Below are positions 25,080 through 39,154 of a stretch of 39,154 bases of DNA, piece by piece; the stretch's first letter is position 1; each line of letters begins with the position of its first letter. Location: contig JAJZHH010000007.1 of assembly GCA_021804595.1 (NCBI GenBank), positions 4,876-44,029 of the forward strand, in the 5' to 3' direction. The position numbers were made by a program, and so were the translations under genes. The notes under the pieces are model-generated. The model was not told the origin of the DNA. It was given only the letters and a program-made list of their open reading frames with translations, and did not search any database. Origin of the DNA: Pseudomonadota bacterium. GTDB lineage: Bacteria; Pseudomonadota; Gammaproteobacteria; Burkholderiales; Burkholderiaceae_C.

Positions 25080-28070
25080 ATGGGAGCGCGAGGCGCGCGC
25101 ACACTGGGCGAGCGGTGGCTGCGGTTTCTCGCCGGCCTGCTCATTGCGCTGGCCGCGCTGCCGGCGCTGGCCGCGCCGCCGCTGCGCGTCGTCACCGACG
25201 ACAACTACCCGCCTTACCTGTTTCGTGACGCCCGCGGGCAGCCCGAGGGCTACCTGGTCGATCTGTGGGCGCTGTGGCAGCGCAAGACCGGCGTTCCCGT
25301 CGAACTGCGGCCGATGCAGTGGGCGGCGGCGCAACGCGCGATGCACGACGGCGATGCCGACGTCATCGACATGATGTTCCGCACCCCGGTGCGCGACCAG
25401 CTCTACCAATTCTCGGCGCCTTACGCGACCCAGACCGTCGGCATCTACGTCGATCACGACATCCACGGCATCCACGGCCCGAACTCGCTGCAGGGCTTCC
25501 AGATCGGCGTCGAGCGCGGCGACGCCTGCGCCGACAAGCTCGGCAGCCTCGGCATCCGCGGACTCGTCGCCTACCCCAACTACTCGGCGATGCTGGCGGC
25601 GGTGAAGGCCGGCGCGGTCAAGGTGATCTGCGCCGACGACGAACCGCTGAACTATTACCTGTACCTGGACGCGCAGCGGCCGCAGCTGACACGCGCCTTC
25701 ACGCTGTACTCCGGGCGCTTCCACTGGGCCGTACACCGAGGCGATGCGGCAACCTTCGCGCTGGTCAGCCACGGCATGACCCTGATCACGCCGGCCGAAC
25801 GCGCCGCACTGCGGCGCAAGTGGTTCGCGCACCCGGTGCAGTTGCTGCCCTATCTGCGCATCGCGCTGGTCGTCGCGCTGGCCGCGGCGGCGGCGCTGGC
25901 GCTCGGCGGGGCGTGGATCTGGATCCTGCGCCGCGCGGTGCGCAAGCGCACCGCCGAAATCCGCGAAAGCAACCGGCGGCTCGAAGCGGCGTCGCGCGAG
26001 CGCGCGCTGCAGCACGCGCAATTGCGCACGCTGGTCGAGAGCAGCCCCGACATGATGTGGCTGAAGGACCGCGACGGCCGCTACCTCGATTGCAATGCCA
26101 GGGCCTGCGAGATCGTCGGCCACGCGCGCGACGACATCATCGGCCGCAGCGACGATGACCTGTTCGGCGACGCCTCGTTCATCGCGGTCGTGCGCGGCTA
26201 CGACCGCGAAGTGCTGCGTACCGGGCAGGCGCAGCGCAACGAGGAAACGCTGGTCTCGCGCGACGGCAGCGCGCACGAACTCGAAGTGATCAAGGCGCCG
26301 ATCCGCGCCGACGACGGCGCCATCGTCGGCGTGCTCGGCGTCGCCCGCGACGTCTCCACGCGCCGCGCTGCCGAGCGCGAGCAGCGCATCGCAGCGGTTG
26401 CGTTCGAGAGTCAGGACGGCATGGCGATCACCGACGCGCAAGGCCTGATCCAGCGCGTCAACGCCGCGTTCAGCCGCATCAGCGGCTACGCCGCCGAAGA
26501 AGTCATCGGCCAGACGCCGCGGATTCTGAAGTCCGGCCGCCACCCGCCGGCGTTCTACGCCGAGTTGTGGGGCACGCTGGCCACCGCCGGCTACTGGAGC
26601 GGCGAAGTGGTGAACCGCCGCCGCGACGGCGAACTGTTCGACGCGCGGATCTCGATCACCGCGGTGAAGGACGAACAAGGTCGCACGCTGCACTACGTCG
26701 GCACCTGGCAGGACATCACCGCGGAGAAGCTGGCCCACGCGCAAGCCGCGCATCTGAAGTCCTTCGATGCGTTGACCGACCTGCCGAACCGCTCGCTGCT
26801 CGACGATCGCATGGCGCAGGCGCTGGCGCGCAGCGCCGAGCTCGGCGGCTTCTGTGCGGTGATGATGATCGACCTCGACCACTTTCAGAAGGTCAACGAC
26901 GCGCTGGGCCACGTCGTCGGCGATCGACTGCTGGTCGAAGCGAGCCGCCGCATCCAGTGGAGCTTGCGCGACGGCGACACCGTCGGCCGCTTCAGTGGCG
27001 ACAGCTTCGTCGTCGTCATCGACGACCTCGGCGAGCAGCGCGGCCTGGCCGCGGTGCGGGCCTCGGATCTGGCCGAACAGATCCGCCACGCACTCGACGC
27101 GCCCTATGCGCCGGCCGGCGGCGCGGTGTGCACGGCGTCGATCGGCGTGACGCTGGCCAGGGGAGCGGAGTCGAGCCCCGAGCTGCTGCTGCGCCAGGCC
27201 GAGCTGGCGCTGTACAAGAGCAAGCGTGACGGACGCAACACGGTGCGCCTGTTCGAGGACGCGATGCAGGCCGAAATCGACCAGCGTTACCGGCTCGAGG
27301 CCGAGTTGCGCGAGGCGCTGCAGCGCGACGAATTCGTGCTGCATTACCAGGTCCAGGTCGACGTCGCGGGCCGACCGATCGGTGCCGAAGCGCTGGTGCG
27401 CTGGGCCCATCCGGCGCGCGGCCTGCTGGGGCCGACCGCGTTCATCCCGGTCGCCGAAGAGACCGGCCTGATCGACCCGATCGGACGCCACGTGCTCGCC
27501 TCCGCCTGCGCGCAGCTGGCGACATGGGCCGCGCACGAAAAGCTGCGCGAGCTGACGCTGGCGGTCAACGTCAGCCCGCGCCAGTTCAAGGCGGCGGATT
27601 TCGTCGACGACGTGCTCGCCGCGCTGCAGCGCAGCGGCGCCGACGCGCGACGACTGAAGCTGGAAATCACCGAGAGCCTGGCGATCGACGATTTCGAGGA
27701 GTCGATCGGCCGGCTGCACACGCTGCGCGACGCCGGCGTGCGGATCTCGCTCGACGACTTCGGTACCGGCAACTCCTCGCTGAAATACCTGACCAAGCTG
27801 CCGCTGACGCAACTGAAGATCGACAAGAGCTTCGTCGACGAATTGCCGGCCAGCGACAGCGCGGCGATGGTCGCGCAGACCATCATCGCGATGGGCCGCG
27901 GGCTCGCGCTCGACGTCATCGCCGAAGGCGTCGAGACCCGCGAGCAGTTCGCCTTCCTCGCCGAGCACGGTTGCCACGCGTTCCAGGGCTATCTGTTCGC
28001 TCGCCCGCTGCCGCTGGCGGAATTCGAGCAGCGCTGCCGCGCCGAGCAGCCCGCGACCCAGGGCGCTTGA
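25080..28070 (+). CDS. Periplasmic SBP_bac_3-TM-PAS-PAS-GGDEF(degenerate)-EAL phosphodiesterase
   Basis: Signal peptide plus SBP_bac_3 (LRVVTDDNYPPYLFRDARGQPEGYLVDLW...), TM LRIALVVALAAAAALALGGAWIWIL, two PAS, RDGDTVGRFSGDSF (degenerate GGDEF), complete EAL set (GAEALVRW, VNVSP, EITES, DDFGTGNSSL, LKIDKSF, IAEGVET, FQGYLFARPL). Confidence 0.93.
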   Translation: MGARGARTLGERWLRFLAGLLIALAALPALAAPPLRVVTDDNYPPYLFRDARGQPEGYLVDLWALWQRKTGVPVELRPMQWAAAQRAMHDGDADVIDMMFRTPVRDQLYQFSAPYATQTVGIYVDHDIHGIHGPNSLQGFQIGVERGDACADKLGSLGIRGLVAYPNYSAMLAAVKAGAVKVICADDEPLNYYLYLDAQRPQLTRAFTLYSGRFHWAVHRGDAATFALVSHGMTLITPAERAALRRKWFAHPVQLLPYLRIALVVALAAAAALALGGAWIWILRRAVRKRTAEIRESNRRLEAASRERALQHAQLRTLVESSPDMMWLKDRDGRYLDCNARACEIVGHARDDIIGRSDDDLFGDASFIAVVRGYDREVLRTGQAQRNEETLVSRDGSAHELEVIKAPIRADDGAIVGVLGVARDVSTRRAAEREQRIAAVAFESQDGMAITDAQGLIQRVNAAFSRISGYAAEEVIGQTPRILKSGRHPPAFYAELWGTLATAGYWSGEVVNRRRDGELFDARISITAVKDEQGRTLHYVGTWQDITAEKLAHAQAAHLKSFDALTDLPNRSLLDDRMAQALARSAELGGFCAVMMIDLDHFQKVNDALGHVVGDRLLVEASRRIQWSLRDGDTVGRFSGDSFVVVIDDLGEQRGLAAVRASDLAEQIRHALDAPYAPAGGAVCTASIGVTLARGAESSPELLLRQAELALYKSKRDGRNTVRLFEDAMQAEIDQRYRLEAELREALQRDEFVLHYQVQVDVAGRPIGAEALVRWAHPARGLLGPTAFIPVAEETGLIDPIGRHVLASACAQLATWAAHEKLRELTLAVNVSPRQFKAADFVDDVLAALQRSGADARRLKLEITESLAIDDFEESIGRLHTLRDAGVRISLDDFGTGNSSLKYLTKLPLTQLKIDKSFVDELPASDSAAMVAQTIIAMGRGLALDVIAEGVETREQFAFLAEHGCHAFQGYLFARPLPLAEFEQRCRAEQPATQGA

Positions 28071-31452: not shown

Positions 31453-33720
31453 CTACTGCCAGGCGTAGCTCACCCCCAGCCAGGCGCCGCGCGGCGCTCC
31501 GGGGGCCTCGAAGCGGGTGCTGCGCCATGCGTTCGGGTCGCTGCTGAAGCTTCGATCCGGGCCGGTGAACTCGTTCTGGCCGAGCTGGCCGAAGTCGGCG
31601 TAGACGCGGTTGAACAGGTTGTGGATCGCGAAGTCGACGCGCCAGTGCCGATCCACAAGGTAGCGCGCGCCGACGTCGACCCGCGCGAATCCGCCGAGGC
31701 TGCCGCGAGCATCGCGGTTGTTTTCGTCGCCCTGCGCGTAGCGATCGCTGTAGGCCACCAGCTGACCGCGCAGTTGCCAGCGTTCGGTCGGCGTGTAGCG
31801 GGCCGACAGCGCCGCGCTCCACACCGGGATGTTGGGCAGGCGGTCGCCGGGGCGTACCTGGATGTTGCCGCTGGCGTCGGCACTGGAATTGCTCGAGCTC
31901 TGCTCCAGGAACCCCGATTCGTAAGTGGCCAGGGTATGGCTGAGCGAGGCCGACCACTGCCAGTGCCGGCTGGCGCCGAGCAGGTCGACGCTCGCGGTGC
32001 GGAACAGCTCCTGCGGGATGTTGGCGAAATAGCCCTGGGTCATGTTCGACAGGCTGATGAACTGGATCGCGTTGTCCAGCGCGGTGCGGGTGTACGACGC
32101 GCGCAGGCGCATGCCGGCCAGGTGCCAGACGGCGCCGGCGCGCACGGTGTGCGCGACTTCCGCCGCCAGCGACGGGTCGGCCACCAGCACATTGGGCAGC
32201 GTGCACGGCGCCGCCGGACTGGCGCAGGTGAGCTCGACCGGCATCGGCACGCGCATGCCCTGCGCGTAGCGCAGCTGGTAGGACGCGCGCCGCGTGGGAT
32301 GCACGTCGACGCCGACGCTGGGGTTGAAGCGCGCGTAGCGGTGGCTGCCGCCCAGCGCCCCGCCGAGGTGGTCGCTCATGTCCACGCTGGCGTCCTCGTA
32401 GCGTCCGCCGGCGTCGACGTCCAGCCAGTGCGCGGGCGACAGCTTGTCGGTGAGGTAGATGCCGCGGTAGACGTTGCGCACGCCCAGGTCGACCGGCTGC
32501 TGGTTGAAGGGGCCGACGCCCACCGTGTAGCGCCCGGGCGTGAAGCCGGCCGCCTGCTGCAGCTGGGTATAGCGAACGGTCTGGCGGTCGTCGTCGACGC
32601 CGGCGGTGACGACGTTGGGCATGCCGGCCAGCGGCGTGTCGCGGCGCAACGCCAGCGCCATGCCGCGCGCCCGCTGGTGCAGGGCTGCGACCACATTGCT
32701 GGCGACCGGGTTGGCAAGTGTCGGGGCCGTACCGTCGTAGCTGCCGTTGACGTTGCTGTTGAACCCCGACTGGTCGCTGTTGCGCAGGTACACGCGGGCG
32801 GTGACCTGCCAGTGCGGCGACAGCCGCTGCGTGTCGCCGAGGTTGAAGAAGTTCAGCTGGTTGTCGATCCAGTCGGGCGCCGTGTAGATGTCGGTCGGCG
32901 TGTTCATCCACTCCGCAGGCAGCGTCTGCGACCCCGACAGGTGGCTGCGGGCGAAGGTATAGCCCAGGTCCAGGTGATTGCCGTCGGCGTCTCGGGTCGC
33001 TTTCGCGAACAGCGTGCGATTGCTGCTCGGGCTGTACGGCGCGAAGCCGTTGTCGTGCTGATTGCGCGCCGCGACGAAGCCGCTCCAGTCGCCGCGGCTG
33101 CCGCCGATGCGCGCGCTCTCGGCGGTGCGCCCGAAGCTACCGGCTTCGACGGCGACCTCGCCGCCCGGGTCGTGACGTCCGTCGCGGGTGTCGACAAGCA
33201 CCGAACCTCCCAGGGTGTTGAGCCCGAACAGCGGGTCGGCGTAGGGCACCAGCGTGATCGAGCGGATCGCATTGCTCGGCAGCAGATCCCAGTTCACGGT
33301 GTCGCCGAACGGCTCGTTCACGCGCGCGCCGTCCTGGAACACCGACAGCCCTTGCGGCGTGCCCAGCAGCGGCGACGCGGCGAAGCCGTTGAAGCGCAGC
33401 GACGGCTGCAGCGCGTTGCCCTGCTCGTGGGTCAGCGCCGCCCCCGGGAGGTTCTGCGCCAGCGCGTCGGGCAGCGGCGTCGCCGGTTGCTCGCGCAAGG
33501 TGCGGCCGGCGATTTCAAACGCGTGCGGCGGCGCGCGAAAACCCTCGACCGCAGGCAGGCCCACGACCACGGCGGGCAGTTGCGGCACGGCCGCTGCGGC
33601 CGCTGCGGCCGATGCCGGCGCGGCCGGCGGCGCCGCGGGCAGGCTCGTCCGCGCCGCGGCCTGCGCGCCGGCGGCGGCGAGTGCCACACCCACGCCACGG
33701 ATCCACACCGATCGCGTCAT
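31453..33720 (-). CDS. TonB-dependent receptor (unknown substrate, TBDR-1)
   Basis: Signal peptide MTRSVWIRGVGVALAAAGAQAA; plug LPGAALTHEQGNALQPSLRFNGFAASPLLGTPQGLSVFQDGARVNEPFGDTVNWDLLPSNAIRSITLVPYADPLFGLNTLGGSVLVDTRDG; C-terminal aromatic WLGVSYAWQ. Confidence 0.92.
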   Translation of the reverse strand: MTRSVWIRGVGVALAAAGAQAAARTSLPAAPPAAPASAAAAAAAVPQLPAVVVGLPAVEGFRAPPHAFEIAGRTLREQPATPLPDALAQNLPGAALTHEQGNALQPSLRFNGFAASPLLGTPQGLSVFQDGARVNEPFGDTVNWDLLPSNAIRSITLVPYADPLFGLNTLGGSVLVDTRDGRHDPGGEVAVEAGSFGRTAESARIGGSRGDWSGFVAARNQHDNGFAPYSPSSNRTLFAKATRDADGNHLDLGYTFARSHLSGSQTLPAEWMNTPTDIYTAPDWIDNQLNFFNLGDTQRLSPHWQVTARVYLRNSDQSGFNSNVNGSYDGTAPTLANPVASNVVAALHQRARGMALALRRDTPLAGMPNVVTAGVDDDRQTVRYTQLQQAAGFTPGRYTVGVGPFNQQPVDLGVRNVYRGIYLTDKLSPAHWLDVDAGGRYEDASVDMSDHLGGALGGSHRYARFNPSVGVDVHPTRRASYQLRYAQGMRVPMPVELTCASPAAPCTLPNVLVADPSLAAEVAHTVRAGAVWHLAGMRLRASYTRTALDNAIQFISLSNMTQGYFANIPQELFRTASVDLLGASRHWQWSASLSHTLATYESGFLEQSSSNSSADASGNIQVRPGDRLPNIPVWSAALSARYTPTERWQLRGQLVAYSDRYAQGDENNRDARGSLGGFARVDVGARYLVDRHWRVDFAIHNLFNRVYADFGQLGQNEFTGPDRSFSSDPNAWRSTRFEAPGAPRGAWLGVSYAWQ

Positions 33721-33801
33721 CGCGCCGCCCCGCAACGCGTCGATGCACTCCGGCCAGGCGCGGCAGAGCCGCTCGATGCGGCGCGAGCGGTGCGCCGCAT
33801 G

Positions 33802-35886
33802 TCAGAACCCGCGCGTCAGCTCGACGCCGATGCCGGCGTTGCGCCCCGGTGCGGCTTCGTAATAGCGGCCCTGCGAGTCGGCGATGACGACCGCGCCGAC
33901 GTACTGGCGGTCGAACACGTTGTCGACCCGCAGGTACTCGTGCAGCGTCCAGCGGCCGCGGCGCTGGCGGGTTCCCAGCGACGCATTGAGCACGCCCCAG
34001 CCCTGCGCCGCGGCGCTGTTGTTCGCATCGACGAAGACCTGGCTGCGCAACTGCCAGTCGAGCGTGGCGTGGAAGCCGTGCAGCGCGCGCGGGCGCCAGC
34101 TCAGCATGCTGTCGAGCTGCTGCCTGGGCACACCCGGCATCGTGTTTCCGTCGTAGGGTCCGCCGACGAAGCGCACGTCGACCAGGCTGTAGGCGAGCCG
34201 CGCGCGCAGGTCGTGCGGCAGCCGCGCACGCAGGCCCAGATCGACGCCCCAGCGCCGCGTGCTGCCGGCGTTGACGTAGCTGGTGCGGCCGCCGCTCGAT
34301 TTGTAGACGACGATCTGGTTGTCGGTGTCGACGTGGTACAGCGACGCATCGACGCGCAGCACGCCGGCGTGGCCGCGCCAGCCGACTTCGGCGCTGCGCA
34401 GATGCATGGGCTGCAGTGCGAAATTCAGCCCGGGCTGGCCGTCGGGCCGGTACGCCAGCTGGTAGGCGGTCGGCGTGACGAAACCGTGGCCGTAGTCGGC
34501 GTAGACGCTGTTGCCGGCGTCGAGCCGCCACAGCACGCCGACCACCGGGTCGGTGCTGGCGTAAGTCGCGCCGCCGCTGCTGCCGGCGTCGAACGGCGCA
34601 TCGAGCGCGGTGCTCGAGCCGAAGCGGACCTGGTCGTGACGGAGCCCGCCGCTGAGCTCGACGCCTGCGCCAAGCTGCCAATGCGCCTGCACGAACTGCG
34701 CGAAGTTGTCGACCGTGTTGTACTGGTCGTTGCGCAGCCCGGTCTGGGTGCCGAAATCGTTGACCCAGCCCTTGCGCCACTCGTTCTCGCGCCCGTAGTC
34801 GACGCCGGCGGCCAGGCGGTAGGGGCGCGCGGCGAGTTCGCCGGCATGGGTGAACTGCGCGCGGGTGCCGCCGAAGGCGTCGCGCAGATCGACCACGCCG
34901 CCTGCCGAGTAGCCGAAACTGCCGCTGAACGGCAGGAACTGCACGACCCGCCGAGTGCCGTCGTACAGCGCCAGTTGCATCGCATCGGCAGCATCGAAGC
35001 GGTGCTGCCAGGAGACGCCGACCTGGCGGTTGCGCGCGGTCTTGCGCGCGTTGTAGGCCAGGATCGCCGGATCGACGCCGCTGGGGTCGCGCTGCAGTTC
35101 GGCGCGTGTCAGTCCGGCCGGATCCTGCGCGTCCTGGTTCAACGCGTTGAGCACGACGCTGTAGCGGTCGCTGTCGCCGGTGTCACGCCGCAGCACCGCA
35201 TTGAACTGCTGCCGGGTGGCCTGGCTGTGCTGGCGCCAGCCGGCCGTGCGCATGTCGGTCAGCCCCGCGACTCCGCTCCAGGAGCCGCTGCGCGCGCCGC
35301 CGCTGAGCACGGTCTGCCGCGTGCCCCAGGCGCCGAGCCAGTTGCTCAGCGTGGCCTCCGGGCGACGCGGCGCGTCGCGCGTCCAGGCTTCGAGCACGCC
35401 ACCGGCGGCGTTGCCGTACAGCGCGGCGAAGGGGCCCTTGATGACCTTCACGCCGCCGAGCATCGGCAAGTCGATGACTTGCGACTGGGCCTGGCCGTCG
35501 GGCATGGTCAACGGGATGCCGTCGAGCTCCAGGCGCAGGTCCTGCACGCCGAACGGCGAATCGGCGCCGAAGCCGCGGATCGACATTTGCATGTCCTGCG
35601 CGTAGTCCTGGCGGTTGTTGACGATCAGCCCCGGAACCTGGTTCAGCGTTTCCGACAGGTTGATGCGCGGCTGGCCTTCGGTCAAGGCGCGCCGGCCGAG
35701 CACCGTGATCGCCGACGGCAGCGCGCCGGGGCCGTAGCTCAGCCCCTGCACGACGACGCCGCGCAGCGCCTGCGGCGCCGACGCCGCGCCAGCCGGCGCG
35801 GCGGCCACGGCGTCGGGGGTCGCGGCGACCGCAGGCGCGGCCGCCGCGACCAGCAACACGAACAGCGAGCGGTGCGCGTTGCTCAT
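33802..35886 (-). CDS. TonB-dependent receptor (FecA-like plug, TBDR-2)
   Basis: VVVQGLSYGPGALPSAITVLGRRALTEGQPRINLSETLNQVPGLIVNNRQDYAQDMQMSIRGFGADSPFGVQDLRLELDGIPLTMPDG...GPFAALYGNAAGGVLEAWTRDA; terminal F. Start overlaps the upstream stop (ATGA). Confidence 0.93.
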   Translation of the reverse strand: MSNAHRSLFVLLVAAAAPAVAATPDAVAAAPAGAASAPQALRGVVVQGLSYGPGALPSAITVLGRRALTEGQPRINLSETLNQVPGLIVNNRQDYAQDMQMSIRGFGADSPFGVQDLRLELDGIPLTMPDGQAQSQVIDLPMLGGVKVIKGPFAALYGNAAGGVLEAWTRDAPRRPEATLSNWLGAWGTRQTVLSGGARSGSWSGVAGLTDMRTAGWRQHSQATRQQFNAVLRRDTGDSDRYSVVLNALNQDAQDPAGLTRAELQRDPSGVDPAILAYNARKTARNRQVGVSWQHRFDAADAMQLALYDGTRRVVQFLPFSGSFGYSAGGVVDLRDAFGGTRAQFTHAGELAARPYRLAAGVDYGRENEWRKGWVNDFGTQTGLRNDQYNTVDNFAQFVQAHWQLGAGVELSGGLRHDQVRFGSSTALDAPFDAGSSGGATYASTDPVVGVLWRLDAGNSVYADYGHGFVTPTAYQLAYRPDGQPGLNFALQPMHLRSAEVGWRGHAGVLRVDASLYHVDTDNQIVVYKSSGGRTSYVNAGSTRRWGVDLGLRARLPHDLRARLAYSLVDVRFVGGPYDGNTMPGVPRQQLDSMLSWRPRALHGFHATLDWQLRSQVFVDANNSAAAQGWGVLNASLGTRQRRGRWTLHEYLRVDNVFDRQYVGAVVIADSQGRYYEAAPGRNAGIGVELTRGF

Positions 35887-37022
35887 TTGACGAAGGAGTC
35901 GAACTGCGACGCATCGTTGGGCGCGGCCTGCGCGGTCAACGGCTTGCCCGACGGCGCGTAGCCGTTGGCGTGCAGCAGGAAGGCCATCACGTCGACGTAC
36001 TGCGCGGGCTTGAGCTGCCCGGGCTTGTCGGCCGGCATATTCGTCGTCACGTACTGGAAGATGCCACCGATGGTCATCGTCGAGTTGCTCGACGGCGCGA
36101 AACCGGCACCGACCAGCGCCGGCGCGGTGCGGCCTTCGAGCTTGGCGCCGTGGCAGCGCGCGCACTCGGCGGCGTACACCTTGCGCCCCGGCCCGACCTG
36201 CGCGGCGGCAAACTGCGCGGTCGGCGTCGCGGCCACGCGCACGAAGCCCCATCCCGGCTGCGGGTGGAACGCCGTACGCGTCGGCGTGGCCGTGGCCACG
36301 CCGTGATCGGCGGCACCTTGCGGCGCCGCCGTGGCCGTCAGGCGCTGCAGTTCGCCGCTGCGGCGCAAGGCGTCGATGGCGTGTGACAGGCGACCGACCA
36401 GCGCGCGCTCGCGCGTCGCGCCGACGAAGCGCAACTGCCAGGTCGAGAAGCGCGAATGCGTCGGCTGCTGCGCGAAGTGCACCCCGGGGTGCGCGCGCTG
36501 GTAGTCCAGCAGGCTCGGCGCCCACGCGATGCCGTGCGGCACCCGCCGCTCGGCCACCGCGCGGATCACCGCGTCGGGCGTGTTCTCGACGTCGAAGTCC
36601 GGCACCTTGGCCTCGGCCGCGATCAACTGCGCCGGCGTGCGGTAGGCGACCGCAACGGCGCCGCCGGGCGCGGTACCGGGCAGCGCGAACTCGACGAAGT
36701 CCGCCGCGACGTAGGGCTGCGACGCGACCAGGCCCGCGCCCGGGCGGGCGCCGGCGGCGGTCGGGATGCCGGCGAACACGTCGCAGGTCGACGCCAGCAG
36801 CTTCGTCAGCCGCGGCTGGGCCAGCGCACCATCGCCGAGCGCGCGGCCGAGGTCGACTTCACGATAGGACAGCGCCAGGCGGCCGAACGCGGCCTTCGCC
36901 ACCGCCGTGTCGACACTGCGTGTCGGGCTGTGCGGGAACAGGCACAGACGCACTTCGTGGCTGTGCGCCGACGTGGCGGCGAACGCGACGGCGCCCGCCA
37001 GGAGGAGATTGCGGTACTTCAT
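35883..37022 (-). CDS. Fusion of XoxJ/MxaJ-like periplasmic binding domain and c-type cytochrome
   Basis: N-terminal signal peptide and SBP-like domain (HEVRLCLFPHSP...STCDVFAGIP...YRTPAQL...GIAWAPSLLDYQR), then GRKVYAAECARCHGAKLEGRTAPALVG...TTNMPADKPGQLKPAQYVDVMAFLL (CxxCH plus Met ligand). Confidence 0.85.
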   Translation of the reverse strand: MKYRNLLLAGAVAFAATSAHSHEVRLCLFPHSPTRSVDTAVAKAAFGRLALSYREVDLGRALGDGALAQPRLTKLLASTCDVFAGIPTAAGARPGAGLVASQPYVAADFVEFALPGTAPGGAVAVAYRTPAQLIAAEAKVPDFDVENTPDAVIRAVAERRVPHGIAWAPSLLDYQRAHPGVHFAQQPTHSRFSTWQLRFVGATRERALVGRLSHAIDALRRSGELQRLTATAAPQGAADHGVATATPTRTAFHPQPGWGFVRVAATPTAQFAAAQVGPGRKVYAAECARCHGAKLEGRTAPALVGAGFAPSSNSTMTIGGIFQYVTTNMPADKPGQLKPAQYVDVMAFLLHANGYAPSGKPLTAQAAPNDASQFDSFVK

Positions 37023-37141: not shown

Positions 37142-38851
37142 TCAGAGCGCGAACACGTACAGCGTGCCGCCGCGCGGGACGTCCTTGGTCATCGTGGCCA
37201 TCGGGCCGCCCCAGATCGGGTTGGCGCCGCCGTAGCCGGCCAGGATCGCGACGTACTCCTTGCCGCCGGCTTCGAACACCGCCGGCTGCGCGATGATGCC
37301 GCTGGCCAGCTTCGGGCTCTTCCACAGCACCTTGCCGGTCTTGGTATCGAAGGCGTACAGATGGCCCTTGAGCGAACCGGAGAAGGCGATGCCGCCCGCG
37401 GTCGCGGTCACGCCGCCGTTCCACGGCATCTTGCTCCAGTGACCCCAGACCTTCTTGCCGGTATCGACGTCGATCCCCTGCACTTCGCCATAGCCCTTGC
37501 TGCCCGGCTCGGGAACGATGCCGAAGCCTTCGCCCAGGTAAGGCAGGCCCTGCATATAGCTGACCTTGGTGCCGTTGTAGCTGCCGCAGGCGTGCAGCGT
37601 CGGCACCACGGCGATGTGCGTCGCCGGGTCATACGCCATCGACCACCAGTTCTTGCCGCCGAGGAACTCGGGGCAGGTCTTGATCGTCTTGCCCACCGTC
37701 GGATACTTCTTCGGGTTGTTGATCGAGTTGCCGTCCTTGTCGTAGCCGAGCACTGAAGTGGCCTTGACGAAGGGCTTGGCGTAGATCAGCTTGCCGGTAT
37801 CGCGATCGATCGCGATGAAATAGCCGTTGCGGTCGGCGTGGATCAACGCGTTGTAGTCCTTGCCCTGGTACTTGATGCGGGCCTGGATCGCGGTGTTGAC
37901 GCCGTCGTAGTCCCACGAATCGTGCTGGGTGTACTGGAAGGCCCAGTTGATGTCGCCGTTGCCGGCGTTCATCGCCAGCACCGAGTCGGAGTACAGGTTC
38001 TTGCCCGGACGCAGCTCGGCCAGCCACGGGCCGGGATTGCCCACGCCCCAGTACAGCTCCTTCTTCACCGGGTCGTAGGTGCCGGTGATCCAGGACGCAC
38101 CGCCGCCGTGCTGGTACATGCCCTTGGGCCAGGTGTCGCCACCCTTCTCGCTGGGCGAAGGAATCGTGTAGCGCTTCCAGACCTGGTCACCGGTCTTCGC
38201 GCTCAGCGCCTCGATGAAGCCGCGCGCGCCGTACTCGCCGCCCGAGTTGCCGACGACGATGTTGCCGTCGACCGCGAGCGGCGCCAGCGAGAAGGCGTAG
38301 CCGATGCCCGGATCGACCAGCTGCTTGCGCCAGTTGAGCTTGCCGCTGGTCGCGTCGAGCGAGACCACGTCGCCATCAAGCATGGCCTCGAACACATCGT
38401 TGCCGTACACCGCGACGCCACGGTTGACCACGTCGCAGCACACGGTCTTGAACGCGATCGGCTTCAGCGCCGGGTCGTAGCTCCACAGCTTCTTGCCCGA
38501 AGTCGCGTCGAAGGCGTAGACGTGGTCCTTCGGCGTCGACACGAACAGATAGTGGCCGTTGACGATCGGCGTGGCCTCGAAGCCCTGCGTCAGGTCGGCC
38601 GGGAACTTGTACGACCACGCCAGCTTCAGGTCCTTCGCGTTGGCCGCGTCGATCTGCTTGGCCGGCGAGTAGCTGTGGCCTTCGTAGCCGTGGTAATAGG
38701 TCAGCCAGTTGGTGCTGTGCGCGGCGTTGTCCAGGCGGGCCTGGGTCACGGCGGGATAGTCGGCGGCCAGCGCGGTGCTGGCCAGCAGCAGGCCCAGCGC
38801 GGCTACCGCGGCGTGACGCCCGTGTCGAGCGTCTCGGCGGGAATGCTTCAT
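37142..38851 (-). CDS. PQQ-dependent alcohol dehydrogenase, putatively lanthanide-dependent (ExaF/PedH-like)
   Basis: ATG at 38851 with AAAAGGAGACAACC upstream; signal peptide; adjacent Cys FKTVCCDVVNRG; GNPGPW; HDSWDYDGVN with D-Y-D; repeated quinoprotein blades (DTGKKVWG, DTKTGKVLWKS). Confidence 0.93.
   Translation of the reverse strand: MKHSRRDARHGRHAAVAALGLLLASTALAADYPAVTQARLDNAAHSTNWLTYYHGYEGHSYSPAKQIDAANAKDLKLAWSYKFPADLTQGFEATPIVNGHYLFVSTPKDHVYAFDATSGKKLWSYDPALKPIAFKTVCCDVVNRGVAVYGNDVFEAMLDGDVVSLDATSGKLNWRKQLVDPGIGYAFSLAPLAVDGNIVVGNSGGEYGARGFIEALSAKTGDQVWKRYTIPSPSEKGGDTWPKGMYQHGGGASWITGTYDPVKKELYWGVGNPGPWLAELRPGKNLYSDSVLAMNAGNGDINWAFQYTQHDSWDYDGVNTAIQARIKYQGKDYNALIHADRNGYFIAIDRDTGKLIYAKPFVKATSVLGYDKDGNSINNPKKYPTVGKTIKTCPEFLGGKNWWSMAYDPATHIAVVPTLHACGSYNGTKVSYMQGLPYLGEGFGIVPEPGSKGYGEVQGIDVDTGKKVWGHWSKMPWNGGVTATAGGIAFSGSLKGHLYAFDTKTGKVLWKSPKLASGIIAQPAVFEAGGKEYVAILAGYGGANPIWGGPMATMTKDVPRGGTLYVFAL

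Positions 38852-39057: not shown

Positions 39058-39154
<97 letters not shown>

Follow-up and report, generated by a model that had tools for sequence, protein, structure and literature searches.

The role of the MxaJ/XoxJ proteins (hereafter J proteins) is debated, with maturation, docking and regulation all under consideration. In the XoxF/XoxJ/XoxG and PedH/PedG/PedF systems a dehydrogenase has a substrate-binding protein (SBP) and a cytochrome c (hereafter G) as helpers, the two being separate proteins. MxaJ and XoxJ have been proposed to bind the partly folded apo form of methanol dehydrogenase (review PMC12997753), and in M. extorquens supplied with lanthanum the loss of xoxG or of xoxJ equals the loss of xoxF (PMC7391723). 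In Methyloversatilis universalis FAM5, the unfused genes mdh2, mdh2J and mdh2G stand in the order dehydrogenase, J and G (PMC5023235). A joined form is also on record: XoxGJ (cytochrome cGJ) of the methane-oxidising Methylacidiphilum is a purified J/G fusion (PMC8498564, PMC6688271, PMC8779874, PMC5623727), and cytochrome cGJ of M. fumariolicum SolV is reported to have been purified as the electron acceptor of the dehydrogenase (Versantvoort 2019, via PMC8779874 and PMC8498564). Here we describe a gene for a J-like domain joined to a c-type cytochrome, lying next to a gene for a pyrroloquinoline quinone (PQQ)-dependent alcohol dehydrogenase in a member of the Burkholderiales (GenBank assembly GCA_021804595.1, contig JAJZHH010000007.1). 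The 39,154 nucleotides of this contig that were analysed are called the window, and its parts relevant to the fusion are as follows.

35883..37022, minus strand: SBP/J-like plus cytochrome c fusion gene, 379 amino acids (aa), stop codon included
36960..37022, minus strand: predicted Sec-type signal peptide, about residues 1-21, MKYRNLLLAGAVAFAATSAHS
36321..36959, minus strand: J-like substrate-binding domain with both lobes, residues 22-234 (AlphaFold2 (AF2), Foldseek, hhalign, match to 9ism_B)
36228..36320, minus strand: disordered linker rich in Ala, Thr and Pro, residues 235-265 (AF2 confidence score (pLDDT) below 50; alignment gaps)
35886..36227, minus strand: cytochrome c domain, residues 266-379 (PF13442 and PF00034 above cut-off)
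36150..36164, minus strand: haem attachment motif CARCH, residues 287-291, invariant in relatives
36036..36038, minus strand: predicted axial haem ligand Met329 in NMPA, invariant in relatives

The first-pass annotation of the window had described one unbroken open reading frame (ORF) of 379 aa at this position. This was borne out, the frame lying on the minus strand, a detail that had been left unstated. The ORF begins at a single ATG, aligned with the starts of its closest relatives, and is free of internal stops, and all of the motifs quoted earlier (STCDVFAGIP, GIAWAPSLLDYQR, CARCHG and NMPADKPG) were found in it. The signal peptide was called from the sequence and from the low-confidence N-terminus that precedes the first strand of the AF2 model. 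That model, built on an alignment of 17 fusions, predicts a two-lobed binding-protein fold at about residues 21-234 (pLDDT about 65-97) and, with moderate confidence, a helical cytochrome domain at about residues 271-355; the addition of the Burkholderia members improved the C-terminus. The linker differs in length among relatives. Across 40 fusions, conservation is 95% or higher for C27, C80, the CxxCH motif at 287-291 and M329 of the NMPA motif.

A tblastn search of 61 related genomes revealed full-length homologs with 45-85% identity in 14 genus members besides the window genome; in one more, the gene is interrupted by the contig end and its N-terminal part is left. Overall the fusion is present in 16/28 genomes of the genus, the interrupted one included; one of the carriers matches Thiomonas sp. 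FB-6. At 35-40% identity, the fusion is also encoded in plasmid records of Paraburkholderia, Burkholderia and Caballeronia, and it was found in 70 of 250 sampled Burkholderiaceae-type family genomes spanning 7 genera, a few of these rows being partial or having a stop inside the aligned stretch. A more distant fusion (27% identity) occurs in a metagenome-assembled genome of the Nevskiaceae. The fusion is thus common in Burkholderia-type bacteria. Since the frame is intact in the 14 other full-length genus homologs, in genera of the Burkholderiaceae and in the Nevskiaceae genome, a frameshift or an assembly joint between the halves is ruled out, in agreement with the earlier reading that no stop or frameshift separates them. 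The plasmid records and the 70/250 count likewise dispose of a fusion restricted to the window organism.

At the level of profiles, the N-terminal half is related to MxaJ/XoxJ-type proteins, resembling free J proteins more than generic SBPs. When compared by hhalign with free TIGR03871-type J proteins of the genus and the order, it gave a probability of 97% (E 1e-10), and verrucomicrobial XoxJ also gave 97%. The control comparison with an amino-acid receptor SBP yielded 3.7% (E 0.011), and two other SBP-type proteins yielded 0.1-1%. The best non-cytochrome match of the fusion profile in the PDB was MxaJ (9ism chain B, E 1.4e-5), chain A of the same entry being the alpha subunit of methanol dehydrogenase; MxaJ itself (9ism, 9iso) differs in being a free protein of the methanol dehydrogenase system, without a fused cytochrome. 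Weak matches to TIGR03871 were obtained for 6/15 fusions, and for 11/21 once the Burkholderia members were added (best E 2.6e-7), and to TIGR03870 (MoxJ) for 6/21 (best E 1.2e-6).

Several results weigh against this assignment. The window fusion has zero match to TIGR03870 or TIGR03871, and no fusion N-terminal half reaches the curated cut-off of a J family. The free J protein of locus L116 aligns poorly to the N-terminal half by hhalign. Foldseek assigned the domain to the type-II SBP fold (E 3e-12), with ordinary amino-acid-binding proteins as the best matches. Pfam and NCBIfam searches with the window protein alone matched the cytochrome half and left the N-terminal half without a match, as did the single-sequence search of the PDB; what that half is was read from its relatives and from the structure. 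The first-pass annotation had called this half XoxJ-like and suggested a profile search of both halves. The specific profile likeness (hhalign 97%, 9ism_B) stands, and the cytochrome families were recovered above cut-off, but formal membership in a J family was not reached and the N-terminal half of the window protein went unmatched. Since it falls below the TIGR03870 and TIGR03871 cut-offs, we refer to the domain as J-like rather than as a formal family member.

The Foldseek result also bears on another account, in which an ordinary ABC-type solute receptor was joined by chance to a cytochrome and has nothing to do with the dehydrogenase. One plasmid annotation, which reads transporter substrate-binding protein, points the same way. 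The specificity of the J-type profile similarity speaks against it, no ABC permease gene lies directly beside the fusion in the annotated Burkholderia loci, and the strict coupling to one dehydrogenase clade described below is hard to reconcile with chance; we give this account hardly any weight. A plain amino-acid-binding protein as the N-terminal half is unlikely after the hhalign comparison with controls. Near the cluster, at 25080-28070 on the plus strand, the window also encodes a 996-aa GGDEF/EAL-like protein with an SBP-like sensor domain at its start, assigned by eye; it was used solely as a control.

The C-terminal half is, by sequence, a class-I monohaem cytochrome c with a CxxCH motif and a Met ligand (C287, C290, H291 and M329, all conserved), as had been read from CARCHG and the downstream Met. 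Residues 275-352 match Cytochrome_CBB3 (PF13442, E 3e-9) and Cytochrom_C (PF00034, E 2e-6), both above cut-off. TIGR03872 (MoxG, cytochrome cL) matches in 19/21 fusions with a best E of 8.5e-9; the window protein scores 21 bits against a cut-off of 147.8, which it does not reach. In two loci of the same genus (L029, L030), a paralogous cytochrome domain with about 41% identity ends a different, longer protein.

The gene preceding the fusion, from which it is separated by 119 bases, encodes the dehydrogenase.

37142..38851, minus strand: PQQ-dependent alcohol dehydrogenase, 569 aa (TIGR03075, 541 bits against a cut-off of 480; best PDB match 6zcw)

Its best PDB matches, 6zcw and 6zcv, are labelled quinoprotein ethanol dehydrogenase, which we take to be PedH. 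Its residues include E206, N272, the catalytic aspartate D314, the additional aspartate of the lanthanide type (D316) and the adjacent cysteines C138-C139, and all of these are conserved in every adjacent homolog whose match covers them. TIGR03075 above its cut-off and the presence of D316 support the earlier reading of the neighbour as a lanthanide-type dehydrogenase, and the enzyme is probably rare-earth (lanthanide)-dependent. The choice of a methanol dehydrogenase operon as the model for this locus is doubtful, because the enzyme is closest to ethanol-type quinoproteins and an aldehyde dehydrogenase stands in the operon.

A survey of fusions beside lanthanide-type dehydrogenases, suggested earlier as a check, showed the dehydrogenase directly upstream of the fusion in every locus reaching that side, with Asp316 in all covering homologs. 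Within the plasmid collection, a dehydrogenase of 67-71% identity occurs in 15 records, precisely those 15 that carry a full-length fusion; any further dehydrogenase there stays at or below 42% identity. A scan of 399 genomes of the order placed the dehydrogenase clade (E <= 1e-160) solely in the window genome and in genome G321, and full-length fusions turned up in that same pair alone; with scoring limited to the leading candidates of each genome, the 399-genome counts are lower bounds. An unfused member of the clade was found neither in these order genomes nor in the plasmid collection, and the ancestral split state was thus unseen. Of all the evidence for the fusion acting with this dehydrogenase, the one-to-one pairing is the strongest.

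Based upon these results, we propose that the fusion acts in the periplasm as a two-domain partner of the neighbouring PQQ dehydrogenase, its J half docking to or maturing the enzyme and its cytochrome half taking the electrons, a reading to which we assign a probability of about 0.7. The J-like domain would bind the dehydrogenase, most likely helping the apo-enzyme to take up PQQ and metal, docking to it, or both. The cytochrome, attached through some 30 residues of flexible linker, would take electrons singly from reduced PQQ and pass them on to the respiratory chain. An electron acceptor tethered to the partner of the dehydrogenase is a sensible reading of this arrangement. The occurrence of a natural covalent fusion paired one-to-one with a dehydrogenase clade argues that the J protein and the electron acceptor work on one and the same enzyme, at a shared place.

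How this protein relates to XoxGJ is best seen in four verrucomicrobial loci (L180, L181, L182 and L184). Both are single periplasmic polypeptides that combine a cytochrome c with a J-type domain and are encoded beside a lanthanide-type quinoprotein dehydrogenase gene. In the XoxGJ-type genes, however, the cytochrome comes first, with CxxCH at residue 47-70, the J part aligns to about residues 94-273 of XoxJ only, and a separate full-length xoxJ lies upstream; the window fusion has a complete J domain first and the cytochrome last. The domain order in these four loci rules out identity with the Methylacidiphilum protein, and the two are different architectures, probably produced by independent fusions. 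Together with the oppositely ordered XoxGJ, the window fusion points to more than one joining of J and G, and such repetition supports a physical link between the roles of J and G. Given XoxGJ, the earlier claim of novelty for a J/G fusion as such was overstated. What appears to be new is confined to how the domains are ordered, to the completeness of J and to the range of hosts; the variant is widespread and apparently undescribed, and our literature search, with most subscription papers outside its coverage, returned no description of the Burkholderiales fusion, a weak negative.

The same comparison lends some substance to another account, namely that the J half does no more than tether the cytochrome to the dehydrogenase, as a docking module or a vestige, and has no part in cofactor insertion. 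Methylacidiphilum cGJ has a truncated J together with a separate full-length XoxJ gene (PMC6688271), a sign that the fused J part may act in docking only, and the window genome offers no free J protein for comparison. Yet the J domain is complete here, with both lobes and the invariant C27 and C80, and since no other TIGR03871 match was found in the window genome, any J function that is needed would reside in the fusion. A docking role alone is possible, though on balance we doubt it. The main question raised by this protein is that of a maturase against a mere dock as the role of J, and the fusion makes a domain-deletion test possible: within a single polypeptide, J could be deleted or altered by point mutation independently of the cytochrome, in tractable environmental members of the Burkholderiales.

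The fusion probably originated by the in-order joining of separate J and G genes. This is likely because the order dehydrogenase, J, G is found both in Methyloversatilis and in a second cluster of some genus members. Like the window organism, M. universalis is a betaproteobacterium with dehydrogenase, SBP and cytochrome in this order; Mdh2J and Mdh2G differ in being encoded by separate genes, and the likeness is drawn from gene order. The XoxF/XoxJ/XoxG and PedH/PedG/PedF systems, of which PedH is nearest to the window enzyme in the PDB, likewise keep J and G apart, and it is a cluster of this separate type that some genus members have as their second. In those with pqq genes it comprises an XoxF-like dehydrogenase, a free XoxJ-like protein, a dihaem cytochrome and a PqqU-like receptor, in that order (L143-L148, L117-L121).

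The remaining genes of the cluster are as follows.

39058..39154, minus strand: C-terminal end of an aldehyde dehydrogenase, the contig stopping inside the gene (a full-length Aldedh occupies the same place in relatives)
33802..35886, minus strand: PqqU-like TonB-dependent receptor (nearest structures PqqU/YncD)
31453..33735, minus strand: second TonB-dependent receptor, often adjoining the cluster in relatives

In relatives, the gene order is a divergent sigma-54 regulator, aldehyde dehydrogenase, alcohol dehydrogenase, fusion, and then the PqqU-like receptor, a second TonB receptor or both. The stop of the fusion and the start of the PqqU-like gene overlap in the sequence ATGA. The nearest structures to this receptor are those of E. 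coli PqqU/YncD (6v81, E 1e-118; 9c4o, E 3e-118), all others being no better than 4e-9; against NF041535 (PqqU) it scores 503 bits and does not reach the curated cut-off of 1200. Provided that the chain is numbered like the precursor, the receptor keeps the residues aligned to K274 and R536 of PqqU, both of which have been discussed in PQQ binding (PMC12124388). Within the genus it is present in 13/16 fusion genomes and in 0/12 others (Fisher p 1.5e-5, kinship ignored). Neither pqqB nor pqqE was found above cut-off in the window genome, which is 95.8% complete, and the genome of Thiomonas sp. FB-6 likewise yielded no pqqB. The window organism is probably a PQQ scavenger with a PQQ enzyme of its own.

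The ATGA overlap, the confinement of the receptor to fusion genomes and the lack of pqqB and pqqE would also fit an N-terminal domain that binds PQQ in the manner of PqqT and hands the imported cofactor from the PqqU-like receptor to the dehydrogenase, the cytochrome simply being carried along. In Burkholderia, however, the fusion is located within a pqq biosynthesis region and no close homolog of PqqU adjoins it, and genus members that have pqq genes also keep it. The fusion is therefore independent of PQQ import, and we regard a PQQ-binding N-terminal domain as quite improbable. The partnership of the J-like domain with the dehydrogenase itself could be carried further: perhaps the fusion is a self-contained unit, in which J opens or holds the apo-dehydrogenase during insertion of PQQ and lanthanide while the tethered cytochrome stays as acceptor, coupling loading with turnover, and PQQ is imported through the co-translated PqqU-like receptor. 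In this elaborated form we think the proposal unlikely.

The aldehyde dehydrogenase in the operon and the PedH-like sequence are the two pointers to the substrate, probably ethanol or a similar short primary alcohol. Physiologically, the cluster would likely oxidise a short alcohol to the acid with scavenged PQQ.

The second TonB receptor is kept beside the cluster with 62-73% identity in the genus and 36% in Burkholderia; one guess at its ligand is a lanthanide chelate. In Burkholderia multivorans, a gene for a high-potential iron-sulfur protein (L112:11228-11545) directly follows the fusion. This protein is a possible next electron carrier, so that in Burkholderia the cytochrome might perhaps pass its electrons to the respiratory chain by way of it.

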